20,322 nt of DNA, from positions 1 to 20,322 of IMG/VR virus record IMGVR_UViG_3300034061_000833; one strand, given 5' to 3'. Shown piece after piece: positions 2,250 to 20,322 of the stretch; within the stretch, counting starts at the first letter, position 1; every line of letters begins with the position of its first letter. The stretch is from a virus. Under the pieces are notes generated by a model, which was given only the letters and a program-made list of their open reading frames with translations, searched no databases and was not told the DNA's origin. The translations under genes and the position numbers were made by a program.

Positions 2250-3848
2250 ATGGAACTGTTTCGACGTTTTATCACACGAGTTGGCTCAGGGTTGGGTGCC
2301 TTTTTCGGCACTTCGCCGGAGTTTGGCACTGCTAAGTTAACGCCACGCAGGGCGATCGAATATGCACCAGTTTGGTATGCAGTAAACAAAATTGCCGGGC
2401 ACTTTTCGCAACTGCCTATCAACTGCCATCGCAGGCTGGAACGCGGCAGCAGCATTGAGCGTTCTCATGCCGGCCATAAGATCGTACACACGCGGCCAAA
2501 CGACTACCAGACTGCTCCAGAGTGGAAAATGTTTGGCGCACCGAGTCTTCTGTTGTACGGCAACTGGCGATGCGTTGTTGAGCGCGAAGGCGGACGGCCA
2601 GTTGCGTTGTGGCCAATGTTGCCAGACCGTTCAAGCAGCGAATGGTTCGAGGGCAAGCGATGGCACGGCACTGTTTTGTGTAAGCACGAGCCATTGGCAG
2701 CAAAACTCGGAGTGACCGAGGATAGTCAAACGGTTTGGTTTCCGGATGAAGACGTGTTTTTTGTGCATGGCCTGAGCTTTAGTGGCCTTGCTGGATTAAA
2801 TGCGTCTGCGGTCATGAGCAACAGTCTTGACGCTGGATTATCGGCAGAGGATCAAGTTCGAAACCTTGCCAAAAAGGGATTCAGCGGATCTCTAATTCTC
2901 GAAGCTCCTGGCGGAATGTTCCGTAATGAAGAGGAAGCAAAGAAATTCTTATCGATGTTTCGCGAAGCTCACGACGGGGCAGAGAACACTGGCAAAACGG
3001 CGATGCTTCGCGAAGGTATTAAGGCAAACATGGTTTCCATGAGCGGCAAGGATTCGCAGTGGATTGAGCAACGGCTATTTCAGCGGCAAGAGGCTGCGAT
3101 GTGGTTCTGCCTAGAAGAGATCCTTGGCGATGATTCGTCAGTGTCTTACAACAGTTTGGCAGAGAAGCATCTGGCATACCTGACGAACTGCCTTAACCGA
3201 TGGCTGGTTCACATTGAGGCAGCTTGCAATCGATCACTGCTGACGGAACGCCAGTTGACGAGCGAAACGCACTATTTCAAGTTCAACACAAACGCACTGA
3301 TGAGAATGGACCCGCTGAAACAGGCCGAATACCTGACGAAGCTAATTGCGGCAACGGTGATCAGCCCGAATGAGGCACGCGAAAAACTGGACATGAATCC
3401 CTATGACGGCGGGGATGAATATCAGAATCCAGCAATCACAGTGACGGCACCAATGGAAGAGGATTCGCCGGACGTTCCAGAAGATCCTGAGCCGGAGGAC
3501 GATCCAGAGACGGAAGCAGTGCAGCGAATGGCCGTAATTTCACGATTGCGGCCGTTGCTGGCTATTGAACAACAGCGAGTGGCAGCAGCGGTCAAAACAA
3601 AAACGCCGATTCAGTCGGTTGAAAAGTTTTACGCAAAATGGCAACACACGCTGGGCGATGTTTGCGAACAACTCGGAGGAACGCCATACGCGGCCGCTGA
3701 GCACTGCCGAATCTCACAGGATGCCTTGATTGAAGTCATGAGCAAGACGGCGGCAAAAGCACTTCCAGACGCAGTTGGGGAACTCACGGCATCGTGGGGC
3801 GAGCGGGTTGAGGATTTGGCGGACTACATACTTGGAGCGACAGTATGA
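2250..3848 (+). CDS. Portal protein (HK97 family) with C-terminal extension
   Basis: This 532-aa protein forms the dodecameric portal vertex through which DNA enters. Family features are the N-terminal segment with YAPVWYAVNKIAGHFSQLP (about residues 38-57), a central beta-rich domain, and the stem/crown region around the segment WFCLEEILGDD with a following long helix (YLTNCLNRWLVHIE). A GAAGG site at 2238-2242 with 7 nt spacing fixes the start. The usual HK97 portal core ends near residue 400. Here it is followed by a strongly acidic Pro/Asp/Glu linker at about residues 403-422 and a further helical domain of about 110 residues. The extension could act as an internal scaffold or crown, but this is inference. 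Confidence 0.95.
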   Translation: MELFRRFITRVGSGLGAFFGTSPEFGTAKLTPRRAIEYAPVWYAVNKIAGHFSQLPINCHRRLERGSSIERSHAGHKIVHTRPNDYQTAPEWKMFGAPSLLLYGNWRCVVEREGGRPVALWPMLPDRSSSEWFEGKRWHGTVLCKHEPLAAKLGVTEDSQTVWFPDEDVFFVHGLSFSGLAGLNASAVMSNSLDAGLSAEDQVRNLAKKGFSGSLILEAPGGMFRNEEEAKKFLSMFREAHDGAENTGKTAMLREGIKANMVSMSGKDSQWIEQRLFQRQEAAMWFCLEEILGDDSSVSYNSLAEKHLAYLTNCLNRWLVHIEAACNRSLLTERQLTSETHYFKFNTNALMRMDPLKQAEYLTKLIAATVISPNEAREKLDMNPYDGGDEYQNPAITVTAPMEEDSPDVPEDPEPEDDPETEAVQRMAVISRLRPLLAIEQQRVAAAVKTKTPIQSVEKFYAKWQHTLGDVCEQLGGTPYAAAEHCRISQDALIEVMSKTAAKALPDAVGELTASWGERVEDLADYILGATV

Positions 3849-4477
3849 CGGAAGGATTTGTGGCCGATCGGTGTGAGTTTGAGTGGCTGACAGAAACGTC
3901 AGGCGGATGGCAGTTTGGTGAACAGGGAATTTTGGTTGCGTTGGCGAACCTAGTTAACAAGCCGGGCCAGTGCGTTGAAGTCGGGGCTGGCGACGGCGAG
4001 GGGCTGCCGTTGACGATCGAACCGTTTTACAATTACGGGCTTGATTGCGTGCTGTTTGAACGGGATTCAGAGTCCCTTGAAAAACTTCACAAAAAGTTTC
4101 CAAAAGCGAATCTTCGCGCAGCGTTCGTTCTAAACACGAGTTGCCACCTTGGTGACAACTTAATGCTGTGCGTGATTGACGTTGACAGCGTCGACCGCGT
4201 CATCATGGAGCAGATTTTGACGTATCACAAACCGAGAATGCTGATGGTGGAACACTTCGACAAATGTCATCCTGCAAATACGGATGATGTAGGGCGTGTT
4301 CCAGCGTGGCTGCTAGGCATTGAGATCGATGGAGGCTTCAAGATTCAAGACAACGCCGAAACCATTTATTCGATTGCTTGTGATTTCAATTACACGCGAC
4401 TCGGGACGACACGAGTCAACTCAATTTTCGTTCATGACTCCTTAGTCGAAAAGGTTGCCAACCATGTACCAAGCTGA
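3845..4477 (+). CDS. SAM-dependent methyltransferase-like protein (FkbM-like)
   Basis: This 210-aa protein resembles a class I methyltransferase. The glycine-rich SAM-binding motif I is visible at residues 44-53 (VEVGAGDGEG), followed by an acidic residue at the end of strand 2 (E72 in LFERD) and a motif at 110-114 (VIDVD) that matches the FkbM-type IDVEG position. The segment near 131-137 (MLMVEH) also fits FkbM proteins, which O-methylate sugars and natural products. The gene overlaps the portal stop by ATGA and the protease start by 14 nt, so it is embedded in the head operon and not a loose insertion. The substrate is unknown: a virion glycan, virion protein or host metabolite is possible. 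Confidence 0.7.
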   Translation: MTEGFVADRCEFEWLTETSGGWQFGEQGILVALANLVNKPGQCVEVGAGDGEGLPLTIEPFYNYGLDCVLFERDSESLEKLHKKFPKANLRAAFVLNTSCHLGDNLMLCVIDVDSVDRVIMEQILTYHKPRMLMVEHFDKCHPANTDDVGRVPAWLLGIEIDGGFKIQDNAETIYSIACDFNYTRLGTTRVNSIFVHDSLVEKVANHVPS

Positions 4478-5132
4478 TCAGGAAACCGGCGAAATTTTTC
4501 TCTACGACGCAATCGGCTCTTCCATGTGGGGAATGATTGACGCGGCGACAGTATTGCCAGACCTGGCAAAGATGTCAGGCCGAAGAATCACATTGCGAAT
4601 TTCATCTCCTGGCGGAAGCGTGGACGAAGGTCGGGCAATCTTTAACGCACTAAAGCGACATCAGGGCGGCGTCGATGTTGTCGTCGATTCGTCGGCGTAT
4701 TCAATTGCCAGCTATATTGCAATGGCTGGTGATCGCGTCGTGATGGCGAAAAACGCCATGATGATGGTTCACAATCCGTGGACGATGGCGATGGGAAGTG
4801 CCGCCGAGCTTCGGAAGACGGCTGACGTTCTCGACAAGTATCGTGATTCGATTCTGGACGCCTACATGGACCGGACAAAAAAGGACCGCAAGAAGATAGT
4901 TGCCATTCTCGACGCGGAAACGTGGTACACGGCACAAGAAGCAGTTGCGGCCGGGTTTGCGACAGAGGTCGGAGATATTGTCGTAGACGCTCCAAAGTTC
5001 GCAAAGGCGATGTATGGCAGCAAGCCGGAAGGCGAAAAGACCAACGAGCCAACGGCAGGAAGTCGGACGCCAGCAACGATTGCATCGCGCGAAATACGAT
5101 TACAGCAGATCAAGGCGATGTTTGGACGATAG
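4464..5132 (+). CDS. ClpP-like prohead protease
   Basis: This 222-aa serine protease belongs to the ClpP/crotonase-fold group used by many HK97-like phages to cleave the capsid scaffold domain. Visible features are the substrate-binding strand with RISSPGGSV (45-53), a probable nucleophile S80 in SSAYSIASYIAMAG, a catalytic H103 in MMMVHNP, and a likely third residue D150 in ILDAETW. The C-terminal tail after about residue 175 is polar and may be the scaffold-like or self-cleaved part. I prefer the ATG at 4464 because AAAAGG at 4449-4454 lies 9 nt upstream. An in-frame TTG at 4455 would add only three residues. It sits between portal and capsid, the usual place. Confidence 0.92.
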   Translation: MYQADQETGEIFLYDAIGSSMWGMIDAATVLPDLAKMSGRRITLRISSPGGSVDEGRAIFNALKRHQGGVDVVVDSSAYSIASYIAMAGDRVVMAKNAMMMVHNPWTMAMGSAAELRKTADVLDKYRDSILDAYMDRTKKDRKKIVAILDAETWYTAQEAVAAGFATEVGDIVVDAPKFAKAMYGSKPEGEKTNEPTAGSRTPATIASREIRLQQIKAMFGR

Positions 5133-5155
5133 GGCTGGTACGACAAGGAGCGATA

Positions 5156-5764
5156 ATGGGAACTGCGGTAATTGTTGGGCAAAACATGCCAGACAAAACA
5201 CTGGATTGTGTTGTTGACATGCACGATCGCACGATCATGTTTGAGCCGGTTCCGCAGGCTGCTGAAGCGTGCCGGAAAAGGTACGCAATGCAGCCAAAGG
5301 CTATCGTGATCGAAGCGGCCTGCGGGGAGGAGCATGGCGAATGTGTATTTAATCTGTATAACACTGATGGGCTATCGTCGTCGCTCGGCAACATTACAGC
5401 ACAGGCTGAGGGCACATGGCGGAATGTAGATTTCAGCAACACCACAGCGATCTATGTGCAAGTTGTGCGGCTCGACTATGTTTTGCAGATGCTGGGAGTC
5501 ACACAGATTGATTGCCTAGTGATCGATGCCCAGGGTATGGACTTTGCAATTCTCAAGACGCTCGAACCGATGATCAACGACGGCATGATCGGGTACATTC
5601 AACTGGAAGCAGACGGGGCTGGCTTTTGTCACTACACAGGAACACCAGATAATTCAGAGGCAGCCATTCTGCAATGGATGTCGCAGTTTGAGCAATACGA
5701 GGCATCGCGATTGCCCGGCCGGATGGTGGAACAGCCAGATTTAGTGTTTACGTTAAAAGAATAA
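5156..5764 (+). CDS. FkbM family methyltransferase
   Basis: This 202-aa protein carries the hallmark FkbM pattern: FEPVPQAAEACRKRY near residues 32-46, a mid-region with SSSLGNI, a VVRLDYVL segment, and the signature IDCLVIDAQGMDFAILK in the C-terminal half. FkbM enzymes transfer a methyl group from SAM to a hydroxyl, often on a sugar. The N-terminus is short: the usual glycine-rich motif I is not evident, only IVGQNMPDKT near residues 6-15, so activity may be altered. The ATG at 5156 has a perfect AAGGAG at 5145-5150. The frame stays open upstream to 4922 but only as the shadow of the protease gene. It is the last gene before the capsid transcription unit. Confidence 0.85.
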   Translation: MGTAVIVGQNMPDKTLDCVVDMHDRTIMFEPVPQAAEACRKRYAMQPKAIVIEAACGEEHGECVFNLYNTDGLSSSLGNITAQAEGTWRNVDFSNTTAIYVQVVRLDYVLQMLGVTQIDCLVIDAQGMDFAILKTLEPMINDGMIGYIQLEADGAGFCHYTGTPDNSEAAILQWMSQFEQYEASRLPGRMVEQPDLVFTLKE

Positions 5765-15936: not shown

Positions 15937-17015
15937 AGCCGTGTATTTATCGCGGAAAACTATCTGGCGAACTTATCGTCTGCACAAACCACCACGATCT
16001 CATTCACGACGGGCTGATTCCAGCCGACGTCTGTGAGTATTGTCATTACGCAACTGAAGAGCGAAAACCACGAGGCGACTTTTTTTCGCAAACTACTGAT
16101 CTGCTGCTGCACAAAGCCAGAACTGGTGAATATATTGCCAATCCAAAACCATGCGGCGGATGCGGTGAAACAAAGCACCGAGTTCCAGAACCTGAAGTCA
16201 CTCAATTCGTCTGGCCCTATTGGGACGGCGGGGCACAAGCCGACGAACTTCGATGGTCCATCAGATCAGTCGAGACGTTCTTTCAGGGCAAGGCAAAAAT
16301 CACAATTATCGGTGATCGTCCGGATTGGTATCACGGTCACGTCATTATCAAAAAGAGAGTTCCGCACACGAAGCCAAATCGAGCCTTTCGCGACATGCTT
16401 GGCAAGGTGTTTTACATCGCGACACATGCCGAAATTGATTCTGAGTGCGTGTGGATGATGGACGACATTTATTTCCTGAAGCCGTTCACACTGAACGACA
16501 TCAAGACGCCGCGTGCGGAACCGTGGCGACCGAACGACAGCAACAGTTGGCAGAAGCGTAAGACAGCGTCAATGGAAGCTCTGGCGGCTCGTGGATTAAC
16601 TCAACACGACTATGCTACACACCTGCCGCACTGGCTGGAGAAGGACAAACTGCGGGCAATGTTTGACGATTTCAACCTGCACGAGCATACCATGCTGTGG
16701 GAGGTATTGTACGGCAATGTTTATCGAGGCACTCCGCAACGCACGCGGCCATTCTTCGCACGCTTTCAGCATCAGGCAGACAAAGAGACGTACAAACGAC
16801 TCACCGCAAACACGACTGTCATCAACAACACCGAGCCAGCTTGGTGTGATGGTCTTCATGACTTTCTCGCCGAACGGCTTCCGACTCCTTCGAGCGTCGA
16901 GGCGGAACACGAGGCGTCGAAGCCGGTTTACATCATCACAAAGAAGGGGCCACGAACTGTAAAGCGTCGGCCACTGGAAACGCACAGAGACTACATCGAG
17001 AAGCAGGCTCAATGA
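15933..17015 (+). CDS. Putative Stealth-like glycosyltransferase with N-terminal zinc-ribbon-like Cys cluster
   Basis: This 360-aa protein has two parts. Residues 1-80 contain six cysteines (4, 17, 34, 37, 74, 77), including CEYC and CGGC pairs, which suggest a metal-binding ribbon. Residues 88-320 resemble Stealth/capsule sugar-phosphate transferases: ELRWSIRSVETFF, an ITIIGDRPDW strand, then the acidic WMMDDIYFLKPF (D177-D178), corresponding to the NDD-type motif in that family, then helices with LPHWLEKDKL. The ATG at 15933 overlaps the previous stop (ATGA) and the next gene overlaps its stop. The reaction, sugar or sugar-phosphate transfer, is inferred by family resemblance only. Confidence 0.65.
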   Translation: MKPCIYRGKLSGELIVCTNHHDLIHDGLIPADVCEYCHYATEERKPRGDFFSQTTDLLLHKARTGEYIANPKPCGGCGETKHRVPEPEVTQFVWPYWDGGAQADELRWSIRSVETFFQGKAKITIIGDRPDWYHGHVIIKKRVPHTKPNRAFRDMLGKVFYIATHAEIDSECVWMMDDIYFLKPFTLNDIKTPRAEPWRPNDSNSWQKRKTASMEALAARGLTQHDYATHLPHWLEKDKLRAMFDDFNLHEHTMLWEVLYGNVYRGTPQRTRPFFARFQHQADKETYKRLTANTTVINNTEPAWCDGLHDFLAERLPTPSSVEAEHEASKPVYIITKKGPRTVKRRPLETHRDYIEKQAQ

Positions 17016-18418
17016 TTCCTCACATCATGATCATTCAGTCTGCCTACACTGACCGCAGGCTATCGGAGCGACGACTGGAGATTTCTCGCCACACTGCGAT
17101 ACCATCGCTGGCATTCCAGACGGTTAAGCCAGTGATTCACATCGCTGTCAATCCTGACGATCCGTTCTTGGCTGAGAGGCTTGAGGCTTTCCGGTCGACA
17201 GGTTGCGAAGTTAAGCCGCTTTACCGGCCGAACTGGAAACTCTACCGCGAGAACTGGGAGCTTCCAGAGGGGCGAAAAATCGTCAGCCGCATGGACGATG
17301 ATGACGTGATCTGTAAAGAGTATTGCCAGCGGACACGCGAAGCCGCTCCAGAGTCAGGCGAGTGGAATCTCATCTGGCCGAACGGCTACGTCTTCTGGCG
17401 CGAGACATGCTACCTCTTGCACCATCCGGGCATTCAGTTTGTGACACTGGTAACTGATCACGACAAAGACCCACATCAGGAACAGCACTGGGGATACCAC
17501 AAGCGATGGCAAACAAAGGTCGTCTCCGATGCGGTTGGCTGGATCTGGGTTCGTCATGGTGACGCGGCATCGTCAACGCTGCCACGATATCGCAAAGTCA
17601 AAAGAAGCGGCATTGATTCAAAGCGAATTCCAATCAACCTAAGAGCAATCCTGCGAGCCATTGCGGACTCTGGGACAGCCAGCGGAAACTATACAGAACA
17701 TCGGAATCCAGCCCTGCTGAAGCACGTCATACAGCAGAACGAACGACACGCACCGACAGCACCAGCCGGGCCGCGTTTTTTGGTCGTAGTCCCGACACAT
17801 CGACTGGCGGTGGCTCAGGCGACAATCGACGAACTGCAAATGTCCTTCACCTATCCAACAGAGTTCCACATCTTGGACGGCACGCCCTCGAAGTGTCACG
17901 CACTCAATAAAGCTCTGGCTGAACTGCTCGATCCGGCAAAGCATGACATTTACGTGACGATCGACGATGACATTCTTCCAGGGGAAAACTGGCAGCACTT
18001 CATTGCATGTGCATTCGACCGCATTCCGAAGCTGGGAGCGTGCGGAGTTGATTACAGCGGAACCGAGGAAGGCCGGACGCTTATGTCCAACGCAATGAAC
18101 TCGCCCGTGCAGCAGGTTAAAGACATTCAGTTCCGCGACGCGACTGGGTTTATGAATCTTGCGGGCGGATGTTTCGCAATCAGGCCCGCACTGGCCAAGG
18201 AGATTGGCCCGTATCCATTCGCAGACGATGGCAGACAATACCATGCGGACGAAGACGGCTGGAGGTCGCATCAAGTCACGCGACGCGGCTGGCGGGTCGG
18301 CTATGTCACGAATCCCAATGAGCCAGTCAGAATGATTACGCACGTCAACACAGAACAGTATGTTGAGACGAAAGCCAAAGACGTAGAGGCGTGGCAAGCG
18401 AGGCCCGTCTGGTCATGA
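17012..18418 (+). CDS. Two-domain glycosyltransferase (rhamnosyltransferase-like plus GT2-like)
   Basis: This 468-aa protein contains two glycosyltransferase-like domains. Residues 1-200 resemble putative rhamnosyltransferases: RLEISRHTAIPSLAFQT, a conserved IHIAVNPDDPF strand, and the acidic cluster RMDDDD (93-98). Residues 254-450 look like a GT2-type domain with FLVVVPTHR, ILDGTPSKCHALNKAL, the DxD-like TIDDD (316-320) and a late ADED (412-415). The domains are joined by a basic linker. Start ATG 17012 overlaps the upstream stop. It is the last gene of the late operon, and together with the preceding gene could extend one glycan by several sugars. Acceptor and donors are unknown. Confidence 0.75.
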   Translation: MIPHIMIIQSAYTDRRLSERRLEISRHTAIPSLAFQTVKPVIHIAVNPDDPFLAERLEAFRSTGCEVKPLYRPNWKLYRENWELPEGRKIVSRMDDDDVICKEYCQRTREAAPESGEWNLIWPNGYVFWRETCYLLHHPGIQFVTLVTDHDKDPHQEQHWGYHKRWQTKVVSDAVGWIWVRHGDAASSTLPRYRKVKRSGIDSKRIPINLRAILRAIADSGTASGNYTEHRNPALLKHVIQQNERHAPTAPAGPRFLVVVPTHRLAVAQATIDELQMSFTYPTEFHILDGTPSKCHALNKALAELLDPAKHDIYVTIDDDILPGENWQHFIACAFDRIPKLGACGVDYSGTEEGRTLMSNAMNSPVQQVKDIQFRDATGFMNLAGGCFAIRPALAKEIGPYPFADDGRQYHADEDGWRSHQVTRRGWRVGYVTNPNEPVRMITHVNTEQYVETKAKDVEAWQARPVWS

Positions 18419-18423
18419 GAACA

Positions 18424-18517
18424 CTAATCCCCTGAAGCGGATAAAAAGCGGCGGGGATGCACAGCACTGGGAGAGGACTGCGAGCTACCTGCAGTCCTCG
18501 CTGTGTTTAATGATTAG
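18424..18517 (+). ncRNA. Structured RNA / terminator with possible three-way junction
   Basis: The 3' end of the late operon folds well. CTAATC (18424-18429) pairs with GATTAG (18512-18517). CCCC (18429-18432) can pair with GGGG (18453-18456), sharing one base with the first stem. CACAGC (18460-18465) pairs with GCTGTG (18500-18505), and GAGGACTGC (18473-18481) pairs perfectly with GCAGTCCTC (18491-18499) around a 9-nt loop. The long stem is followed by TTTAAT. It may be a terminator with extra stems or a small phage RNA. Its last bases overlap the end of the convergent gene. Confidence 0.4.
18473..18508 (+). terminator. Transcription terminator hairpin of the late operon
   Basis: A 9-bp perfect stem (GAGGACTGC/GCAGTCCTC), extended by a 6-bp stem across a 7-nt bulge, is followed by only three T residues. 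It separates the rightward late genes from the leftward gene at 18514-18702. Because the stem is symmetric, it might slow transcription from both sides, though the minus-strand side has no T run. Confidence 0.6.
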
Positions 18518-18702
18518 CAACTACTGCCGCACGTTGGACATTTCCATCCGCCGAATTTGACGGACGATAAAACCCAAATCGGAATCCACATTCCCAGTGT
18601 GAAAAATGAAATGCACAAGTGCAGTGCATGGTTAGTGCTTGGCCGGACTGCCATAACATTGCTTTTGCATTTGGGACAATGCTTTGCAGTGACATCGGCC
18701 AT
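18514..18702 (-). CDS. Small LITAF-like zinc-ribbon membrane protein (probable moron)
   Basis: This 62-aa protein has two CxxC pairs (C9-C12 in HCPKC and C55-C58 in KCPTCGSS) separated by a hydrophobic stretch at about residues 26-47 (LHLCISFFTLGMW, PIWVLSSV). That is the layout of LITAF-like membrane-anchored zinc ribbons: a split ribbon whose middle dips into the membrane. The ATG at 18702 has AGAGGG 8 nt upstream. A GTG at 18726 lacks this support. It is the only leftward gene in the window, with no operon partner, typical of a moron that may act on the host envelope. The function is unknown. Confidence 0.78.
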   Translation of the reverse strand: MADVTAKHCPKCKSNVMAVRPSTNHALHLCISFFTLGMWIPIWVLSSVKFGGWKCPTCGSSC

Positions 18703-18928
18703 CACGCACACCCTCTGGCAAACCACATCAGCAGCAGAATCGGGCCTGCGAAAATGCAGGCGCGTAAGTCACGGGCGATTCGGCGGGACGGGTTCATGGT
18801 TAACAGGATTGACGCGGACGGGCAAAATGTCAAATGACTAGCCAGCCGCGAGCCGTTCGGCGGTCATGCTGACCAGACGACCCAATAAAAACACGGGCAA
18901 AACAAAATCTTTTCCACAATCCAGCAAA
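18703..18928. other. Intergenic region between moron and early promoter
   Basis: About 225 bases without a convincing gene on either strand. Two small perfect stems are present: GCCTGC/GCAGGC at 18744-18761 and GGTCA/TGACC at 18862-18874. A TTGACA on the minus strand (18833-18828) could be the -35 of the leftward gene, but I see no fitting -10 at 16-18 nt. Confidence 0.4.
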
Positions 18929-18938
18929 ATGATATCAC
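18929..18938. promoter_or_regulatory. Operator copy 1 (palindromic)
   Basis: ATGATATCAC contains the 8-bp palindrome TGATATCA. It is the exact reverse complement of operator copy 2, with centres 34 bp apart, and lies just upstream of the -35 element of the early promoter. Confidence 0.7.
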
Positions 18939-18944
18939 CACCCA

Positions 18945-18972
18945 TTGACGCCCCTGCCGATAGTGATATCAT
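18945..18972 (+). promoter_or_regulatory. Early promoter (sigma70-type)
   Basis: The -35 TTGACG (18945-18950, five of six) and -10 TATCAT (18967-18972, five of six) are 16 nt apart. Transcription would start near 18979, about 34 nt before the first early gene. The -10 lies inside operator copy 2, so a bound repressor would block RNA polymerase. Confidence 0.75.
18963..18972. promoter_or_regulatory. Operator copy 2 (palindromic), overlapping the -10
   Basis: GTGATATCAT contains the same 8-bp palindrome TGATATCA as copy 1 and covers the whole -10 hexamer. Two identical palindromes on either side of a -35 are typical of a cooperatively repressed phage promoter. The repressor is not identified in the window, though the ribbon-helix-helix protein at 19302 is a candidate. 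Confidence 0.72.
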
Positions 18973-19012
18973 GCTCGCATCGAGACGCAAAACACAAACG
19001 AGGAAAAGAACG

Positions 19013-19165
19013 ATGATCAACACACCAGAAACAATCAACATGATCAAGCCTTGGCTCACAGGAAACGACGAGAATGACGCAAAGATGCTCAGCCGAATGT
19101 TTCGAGCGGTTGGCTTCAGTCTTGGAGAGTGGCGAACAGTGGTGGCGGAAGCGAAGGCAGCATAA
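19013..19165 (+). CDS. Small early protein, unknown
   Basis: This is a 50-aa protein, mainly helical, containing MIKPWLTGNDENDAKMLSRMF and GFSLGEWRTVVAEAKAA. The start is ATG 19013 with GAGG at 19000-19003. The same frame is open upstream to 18866, but that region holds the promoter and operators. It is the first gene of the early operon and overlaps the next gene as TAATG. I do not recognise it. Size and placement would fit a small regulator or anti-host protein. Confidence 0.6.
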   Translation: MINTPETINMIKPWLTGNDENDAKMLSRMFRAVGFSLGEWRTVVAEAKAA

Positions 19166-19305
19166 TGACCAAAGAAAAAAGACAAGGGGCTGGCAGACCA
19201 GCCCCAACAATCCGAAACCTGCAAGCCCGCATCATTTACGCTCAGCACGACGGCAACCACGCCGAAGTCTTGCGGCTAAAAAAGGAACTGGAGAACGTGA
19301 AGTGA
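19165..19305 (+). CDS. Very small early protein, unknown
   Basis: A 46-aa basic protein starts MTKEKRQGAGRPAPTIRNLQ and continues with a charged helix ending LRLKKELENVK. It is short but well supported: its ATG overlaps the previous stop (TAATG), and its TGA overlaps the next GTG (GTGA). The basic GAGRPAP start is reminiscent of nucleic-acid-binding tails. No function is assigned. Confidence 0.6.
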   Translation: MTKEKRQGAGRPAPTIRNLQARIIYAQHDGNHAEVLRLKKELENVK

Positions 19306-19457
19306 CAAAGAAAATCAAAGGCAATCCTCAACTGCTGCTGCGTGTTCCGCCGGAACTGCAAAAGCCTTTGGCGGATGAATCAGCGAAGACCGGCGAAAGT
19401 CGGCAGGGCGTGTTGTGGCGGATCGCGGCGAAGTATTTTAAGGGGCGGAAAGCGTGA
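19302..19457 (+). CDS. Ribbon-helix-helix (Arc/CopG-like) transcriptional regulator
   Basis: This 51-aa protein fits the ribbon-helix-helix fold: a basic arm (MTKKIKGN), a strand PQLLLRVPPEL, helix 1 (QKPLADESAKTG), the ESRQGV turn, and helix 2 (GVLWRIAAKYFKG). Dimers of such proteins bind short palindromes. GTG at 19302 is the start, with GGAG at 19290-19293 and 8 nt spacing; the following gene starts inside its stop (GTGA). It is a natural candidate to bind the TGATATCA palindromes upstream and autoregulate the operon, but this link is inference. A toxin-antitoxin role is not supported, as no toxin is adjacent. Confidence 0.7.
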   Translation: MTKKIKGNPQLLLRVPPELQKPLADESAKTGESRQGVLWRIAAKYFKGRKA

Positions 19458-20322
19458 GGATCGACTTCAATACACGTTCAGCAGAAGACTACGCACGTTT
19501 TCTAGCTGTACGCAAATGTCCGATCTACCAGTTCAAGGGATCGGCCGCAATTGTCCCTGACGAATACGCCTCACTCGTCGGCGTGAAGTCAAAGCGAAAG
19601 ACGGGCAAGAAATACACTCCGGCCGTCAACCTGTTCGACTACCAGGCAGACATTGTTCGGATCGCTGTTGAGCGTCGCAAGTATGCTATTTTCGCTGACT
19701 GCGGACTTGGCAAAACGTTGATGCTTCTGGAGTTCGCTCGCCATTGTGCTGAGCAGACAAAAGGCAAAGTGCTGATTGTTTCCCCGTTGATGGTATGTCG
19801 TCAAACGGTCGACGAAGCCATCCGGTGGTACGGCGAATCATTCCCGATCGGTCGAGTTAAAGCCTTCGATCTGCAGTACTGGTTGAACTCAGCAAGCTCG
19901 CTTGATTCGCAAATTGGAATCACGAACTACGAAGCGATCCGCGAAGGGCTGGAGCCTGGAAGACTGTCAGGATTGATTCTCGATGAATCATCCATGCTGA
20001 AAAGCCATTACGGTGCATGGGGTACGCGGCTGATTGAGTTGGGCCGTGGACTTGATTGGAAATTGTGCGCGACAGGAACGCCAGCCCCGAACGATCGAAT
20101 CGAGTTTGCGAATCATGCGGTACTGTTGGACCGTGCGAAAACCGTCAATGAGTTTCTCGCCACATACTTCATTAATCGCGGTGAAACGCAAAACCGATGG
20201 GAACTCAAGCCGCACGCATTAAAGCCGTTCTATAGGTCGCTTGCCGACTGGTCGATCTTTCTGACGAATCCAGCCACCTACGGATGGAAAGATAACGTTG
20301 GCGTTACTCCGCCGATCAACAT
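19454..20322 (+). CDS. SNF2/DEAD-type helicase, partial at the window edge
   Basis: The N-terminal 289 residues are visible and the gene runs off the right edge. Helicase motif I (Walker A) is CGLGKT (83-88), motif Ia is VLIVSPLMV (106-114), motif II is LDESS (176-180), and motif III is ATGTP (206-210). These are SNF2-like superfamily 2 features found in phage replication or recombination modules. The N-terminal 60 residues precede a FDYQADIV segment (61-68), the usual Q-motif-like start. GTG 19454 overlaps the previous stop (GTGA). Its exact role, replication fork remodelling, recombination or anti-defence, cannot be told from the fragment. Confidence 0.85.
   Translation, partial: MRIDFNTRSAEDYARFLAVRKCPIYQFKGSAAIVPDEYASLVGVKSKRKTGKKYTPAVNLFDYQADIVRIAVERRKYAIFADCGLGKTLMLLEFARHCAEQTKGKVLIVSPLMVCRQTVDEAIRWYGESFPIGRVKAFDLQYWLNSASSLDSQIGITNYEAIREGLEPGRLSGLILDESSMLKSHYGAWGTRLIELGRGLDWKLCATGTPAPNDRIEFANHAVLLDRAKTVNEFLATYFINRGETQNRWELKPHALKPFYRSLADWSIFLTNPATYGWKDNVGVTPPIN

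Follow-up and report, generated by a model that had tools for sequence, protein, structure and literature searches.

Gene layout and promoter of the early region

The window analysed here (20,322 bases) comes from an incomplete IMG/VR virus record and encodes terminase, portal, capsid and tape-measure proteins recognizable in Pfam and PHROG searches, with an early region at its end. Among named phages we found no DNA match to this region, no credible match to the small protein RHH51 described below and at most ~34% identity to the early helicase, while the best terminase matches reach ~33% identity in Planctomycetota genomes and 33% in a Halomonas phage. Two ORFs inside the head-gene module (3845-4477 and ~5053-5764) resemble FkbM-type methyltransferases by eye, and the tail module ends with a two-part glycosyltransferase-like protein (17012-18418; Pfam Rhamno_transf and Glyco_tranf_2_3). 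Between the tail module and the early promoter lies a minus-strand ORF of 70 aa with two CxxC motifs (18514-18726), which matches phrog_2697, a family of unknown function (E=9e-10).

Four plus-strand genes make up the visible part of the early region. The first, orfA (19013-19165, 50 aa), has neither a Pfam nor a PHROG match and holds a variable first-gene slot that is occupied in relatives by 14 unrelated genes or by nothing. It is followed by orfB (19165-19305, 46 aa), which overlaps the next gene by 4 bp; the C-terminal half of its product, TIRNLQARIIYAQHDGNHAEVLRLKKELENVK, is kept in most relatives, and the gene is absent from several loci (L004, L005, L008, L357 and others) and thus not obligatory. 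The third gene (19302-19457, GTG start) encodes the 51-aa RHH51, our proposed autorepressor, and the fourth a SNF2-type helicase (19454-20322; PF00176, E=2e-10; phrog_62, E=1e-32) that is cut by the window end. Because a SNF2 helicase, a DNA methylase and a DnaB-like helicase lie downstream in a long relative, we assign the operon to early DNA metabolism. RHH51 is the only early regulator in view, as the initial annotation stated, for this fragment of an incomplete record.

Upstream of orfA, two 10-mers, ATGATATCAC (18929-18938, plus strand; core TGATATCA at 18930-18937) and GTGATATCAT (18963-18972, minus strand; core TGATATCA at 18964-18971), are mutual reverse complements with a centre-to-centre distance of 34 bp, and exact sequence matching confirmed the identity and spacing first reported for them. 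A promoter scan identified a plus-strand -35 hexamer, TTGACG (18945-18950), separated by a 16-bp spacer from a -10 hexamer, TATCAT (18967-18972), with a TG extension at 18964-18965; together the hexamers match the promoter consensus at 10 of 12 positions. The left palindrome ends 7 bp upstream of the -35, and the right palindrome contains the extended -10, in agreement with the original description of a near-consensus -35 between the palindromes and a covered -10. A divergent promoter reading from the left copy was rejected: the reverse TG-A-TATCAT is present, but by eye it has no properly spaced -35, and the scan reports no minus-strand promoter there. The left palindrome is preceded by an A-rich stretch (18890-18928, plus strand; consensus AACACGGGCAAAACAAAATCTTTTCC.CAATCCTGCAAA), possibly an UP element or an additional binding region. 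Downstream, a 5' leader of a type that we call leader A (18973-19012, plus strand) carries a ribosome-binding site, GAGGAAAAG, at 19000-19008 and a tail, GAGACGCAAAAC..AGGAAAAG, found in 22 contigs. A structured RNA was considered and rejected, as Rfam matched neither the window nor two relatives.

Judged from the window alone, the palindrome pair is only suggestive. TGATATCA occurs twice against 0.27 copies expected, with none beyond the pair, and only 1 of 1000 Markov-simulated windows contained two TGATATCA copies within 60 bp of each other. The window by itself is nevertheless weak evidence, because some identical 8-bp palindrome pair arises in 117 of 1000 simulated windows (~12%). A second such pair, TTCGCGAA at 2959-2966 and 3007-3014, lies inside the portal gene and is compatible with chance. 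The window alone therefore does not amount to the "strong signature" claimed by the initial annotation; the pair gains its significance from conservation in 46 contigs.

Conservation and co-inheritance of the palindrome pair and RHH51

A DNA motif search located the exact arrangement TGATATCA-N7-TTGAC-N14-TGATATCA in these 46 viral contigs. When the spacing was relaxed, 48 hits fell at (7,14), against 18 scattered over 10 other spacing combinations; one family member (L251) has the spacing (6,14), and the distance between operators within the RHH51 family is thus 34 bp and once 33 bp. The aligned elements share AAAATGATATCACC..CATTGACG......CGATAGTGATATCAT, carry one of two leaders and, in almost every one of the 46 motif-bearing contigs, are preceded by the A-rich stretch; sequence further upstream differs. 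Across 31 distinct sequences the six -35 columns are invariant, and mean column conservation is 0.98 for the operators, 0.87 for the spacer and 0.79 for the upstream flank. It is this conservation in related contigs that makes the pair significant and leads us to reject chance palindromes, which the window alone does not exclude. Additional copies of TGATATCA, for which a search had been proposed with many unrelated copies as the sign of a spurious site, are few: exactly two copies are present in 25 of 32 related records and three in the other 7. A scan of genome collections revealed no second copy of the RHH51-family element in cellular genomes, its hits being chance matches inside genes or other RHH loci. 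One motif-bearing phage record also encodes a CsrA-family protein (L376:2814-3080; PF02599, E=3e-22).

The sites and the RHH51 gene travel together. Among 80 loci fetched as relatives of the helicase, ten (L002-L008, L010-L012) have the pair at unchanged spacing, with differing upstream sequence and first gene, and all ten also encode RHH51. Of the loci without the sites, 57 have 1.2 kb or more of upstream sequence, and none of these has RHH51 nearby. Locus L013 encodes a helicase 91% identical to that of the window, yet has neither the pair nor RHH51; the flanks of L018 also have neither, and the same contig (L215) carries sites and RHH51 together, far from that helicase. As a downstream early gene the helicase varies among relatives: in other motif-bearing loci it shows only ~31% identity to the match or is absent from the vicinity.

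An alignment-based RHH51 protein search of viral contigs, blind to the DNA motif, returned 49 loci, 46 of them with the exact pair upstream. Two others, L350 and L360, begin at or inside the RHH gene and have no upstream DNA, leaving 47 testable loci. In the last of these, L357, the RHH gene comes first, the right site is TGATATCA and the left site, AGATATCA, differs by one base. The right operator is accordingly present in 47 of 47 testable loci and the left exact in 46, always upstream of a protein with 86-100% identity to RHH51, although, given the relatedness of the motif-bearing contigs, these are not 47 independent events. On both sides of the sites and RHH51, neighbouring genes have repeatedly been replaced. 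As read from these alignments, the predicted operator pair and RHH51 form a module preserved in nearly 50 related phage contigs despite the swapping of the genes around it.

Fifteen first genes, 47-122 aa long and unrelated to one another (no mutual BLASTP hit at E 0.01), take up the position between leader and RHH gene in the various loci. Nine of these and orfA were scanned, and none has a Pfam match above cut-off. The first start codon mostly lies 41-42 nt past the right operator with leader A and 73-75 nt past it with leader B. Leader B (GAGACGCAGTGTGTGACTCGGACGC...GAGGCCGCAAGCCTC, with a hairpin) replaces leader A in about one third of RHH51 loci, for example at L337:1850-1933, and has no Rfam match. 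The hypervariable slot from right operator to RHH gene in L313-L361 holds candidate anti-defence or host-takeover genes.

Predicted fold of RHH51 and palindrome pairs beside other RHH genes

RHH51 matches nothing in Pfam, PHROG or the PDB sequences, and so has no recognizable sequence family within the ribbon-helix-helix (RHH) superfamily. An AF2 model built from the single sequence (mean pLDDT 71) contains helices at residues 17-30 and 34-46 after a strand-like QLLLRV segment, which is the superfamily layout of one strand and then two helices in ~45 residues. Foldseek ranks 1-15 are all RHH proteins (Arc, CopG, CdbA, VapB, HicB), with weak E-values, all at least 1.9, and because of these the fold assignment relies on topology and on the RHH identity of the top hits. 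Both point to RHH51 as a probable Arc/CopG-type RHH protein. The strand segment QLL.RV is invariant in the 18 sequences of the RHH51 alignment, and by comparison with Arc its residues Q, L and R would presumably face the DNA.

The same palindrome recurs beside other RHH genes. Outside the RHH51 family, 62 loci from viral and genome collections carry a TGATATCA pair around TTGAC, many of them chance occurrences inside long open frames. A small RHH-like gene adjoins the pair in 20 of the 62 unrelated loci, whereas a scrambled palindrome of equal composition gave an RHH neighbour in 0 of 11 loci (Fisher P ~0.02, with a small control set). Ten of the 20 RHH-like proteins were scanned, and five pass the Pfam cut-off as RHH_1, Arc or FitA-like RHH; the remaining proteins of the 20 were assigned by eye. 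A class-wide search of Alphaproteobacteria that dropped the TTGAC requirement yielded pairs that are for the most part due to chance; RHH neighbours occurred in 3 of the 14 genomes. Overall, these loci suggest that TGATATCA may be a recurring RHH site across phages and bacteria, accompanying Arc-like, RHH_1-like and FitA-like genes; among the papers searched, none names both "ribbon-helix-helix" and TGATATCA.

At two loci, L254:745-789 and L259:1157-1201, an Arc-family gene lies under a TGATATCA-pair promoter (the Pfam Arc cut-off was passed for L254), and the next gene resembles by eye a Rha-type phage regulator, an order that recalls the P22 immI region.

Proposed autorepression and comparison with known systems

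We conclude that the element at 18929-18972 is very probably the control region of a phage early operon autorepressed by RHH51. From a host sigma-70-type promoter (TTGACG, 16 bp, extended -10 TGATATCAT), transcription would run through the short leader, an interchangeable small first gene and, in most cases, orfB before reaching RHH51 and the DNA-metabolism genes. At each TGATATCA, the major groove would receive the two-stranded sheet (residues QLLLR) of an RHH51 dimer, with the right dimer covering the -10 and the left dimer sitting just upstream of the -35, so that RNA polymerase would be excluded once RHH51 accumulates. The early genes would thus be expressed in a burst that one of their own products brings to an end. 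Co-inheritance with the sites, the structural support for an RHH fold and the TGATATCA pairs beside RHH genes of unrelated lineages bear out the initial annotation in proposing RHH51 as the regulator, and make it by far the best candidate repressor for the predicted operators. The same annotation had read the pair as cooperative repressor control. Co-inheritance and recurrence support the sites as operators, whereas cooperativity between dimers is conjectural: the 34-bp spacing is not a whole number of helical turns, and unrelated RHH loci have spacings of 28-39 bp, so strict helical phasing is not general.

Negative feedback on the early operon fits better than a lysogenic switch. The "switch" originally thought plausible is disfavoured in its lysogenic sense, with tyrosine integrase (PF00589) in 0 of 17 related, incomplete records and no second conserved regulator found in the same set, where HTH_3/Xre-type proteins occur in only one record.

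Could a different protein, from the host or from elsewhere in the phage, bind TGATATCA, so that RHH51 would have some other function and merely be conserved nearby? The window covers only a fragment, the binding of RHH51 to TGATATCA is a prediction, and relatives do encode other DNA-binding proteins, namely an HTH_17 protein in G024 and an Xre-type protein in G014. We nonetheless regard this as unlikely, given that the sites and RHH51 remain linked despite changes in all that lies between and around them, that HTH_3 proteins, present in only 1 of 17 records, lack such conservation and that unrelated RHH genes occur at the same palindrome. A second alternative treats the pair as a promoter feature instead of operators, with the right copy serving simply as an extended -10 and the left palindrome having arisen by chance or duplication; it draws on the TG-n-TATCAT contained in TGATATCAT and on the 12% of simulated windows with some palindrome pair. 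It is very improbable: no promoter element requires the left copy, yet it is as well conserved as the right one (46 of 47 loci), whereas neighbouring spacer bases vary, and the motif is tied to RHH genes in unrelated genomes. Also very improbable, finally, is a partition or relaxosome site (omega/parS, MobC) with promoter control secondary, since, even though RHH ParB proteins bind promoter-overlapping sites and recognize the related heptad WATCACW (PMC9499535), there are two sites only rather than arrays of contiguous repeats, one falls exactly at the -10 and the other next to the -35, and the DNA carries phage head and tail genes.

Autorepression by RHH51 would be in keeping with several characterized systems, since there is ample precedent for RHH repressors that regulate their own genes from promoter-overlapping sites (PMC5569661, PMC3920265). 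Like Arc and Mnt of phage P22, RHH51 is a small phage protein of predicted RHH type, predicted to be dimeric, with palindromic operators over an early promoter. Arc is among the nearest structural hits of the model, although no sequence match to solved RHH proteins was found. P22, however, is temperate, and its Arc and Mnt govern an antirepressor, whereas here no tyrosine integrase was found in 17 related records and no antirepressor adjoins, and the operator differs. Omega, the RHH ParB of pSM19035, binds as a dimer to promoter-overlapping WATCACW sites of ~7 bp (PMC9499535), and the right operator read inwards gives TATCACT; omega requires arrays of contiguous heptads and functions in partition, in contrast to the two separated 8-bp palindromes here. 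In FitAB, two dimers of the RHH antitoxin FitA occupy a 36-bp upstream segment (PMC3920265), and a FitA-type gene adjoins the TGATATCA pair in L288. Unlike FitA, RHH51 has no toxin partner. The overlapping orfB matches no toxin family and is missing from several loci, and the downstream genes vary, so a toxin-antitoxin pair of orfB and RHH51 was rejected.

The layout resembles that of acr-aca operons, with a putative RHH protein replacing the usual helix-turn-helix regulator. In phages JBD30 and ZF40, Aca1 and Aca2 bind inverted repeats overlapping the -10 and -35 of an early-type promoter (PMC8434428); here the right site overlaps the -10 and the left lies 7 bp upstream of the -35. In both cases one or more small variable genes come first and a small conserved DNA-binding gene later in the operon. 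Autorepression is demonstrated for Aca and predicted for RHH51. All Aca proteins known in 2021 were helix-turn-helix proteins (PMC8434428), whereas the RHH51 model is of RHH type, and the operon here also includes a helicase and other DNA-metabolism genes. We do not file the module as acr-aca because its regulator falls outside the helix-turn-helix fold and its variable genes are only candidate anti-defence genes. A comparable arrangement is found in archaeal viruses, in which a conserved early regulatory sequence precedes unrelated small anti-defence genes and an Aca, a small DNA-binding autoregulator (PMC11065993); those viruses use archaeal promoters in several copies per genome, whereas the phages described here have one copy of a bacterial-type promoter.

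These parallels raise the possibility, which we put forward tentatively, that RHH51 is an Aca-like master autorepressor of a cargo slot, in which a fixed promoter, operators and leader on one side and a fixed RHH gene on the other frame an interchangeable first gene. At the least, the analysis provides a candidate operator for a tiny phage protein of predicted RHH type, one unmatched in both Pfam and PHROG. The control sequence also offers a search handle to a slot holding many unrelated small early genes. Such slots are where anti-defence proteins have been found, here with a predicted RHH rather than a helix-turn-helix regulator. If the cargo-slot reading is true, the 15 small first genes would be candidate anti-defence or host-takeover proteins, findable through their shared control sequence.
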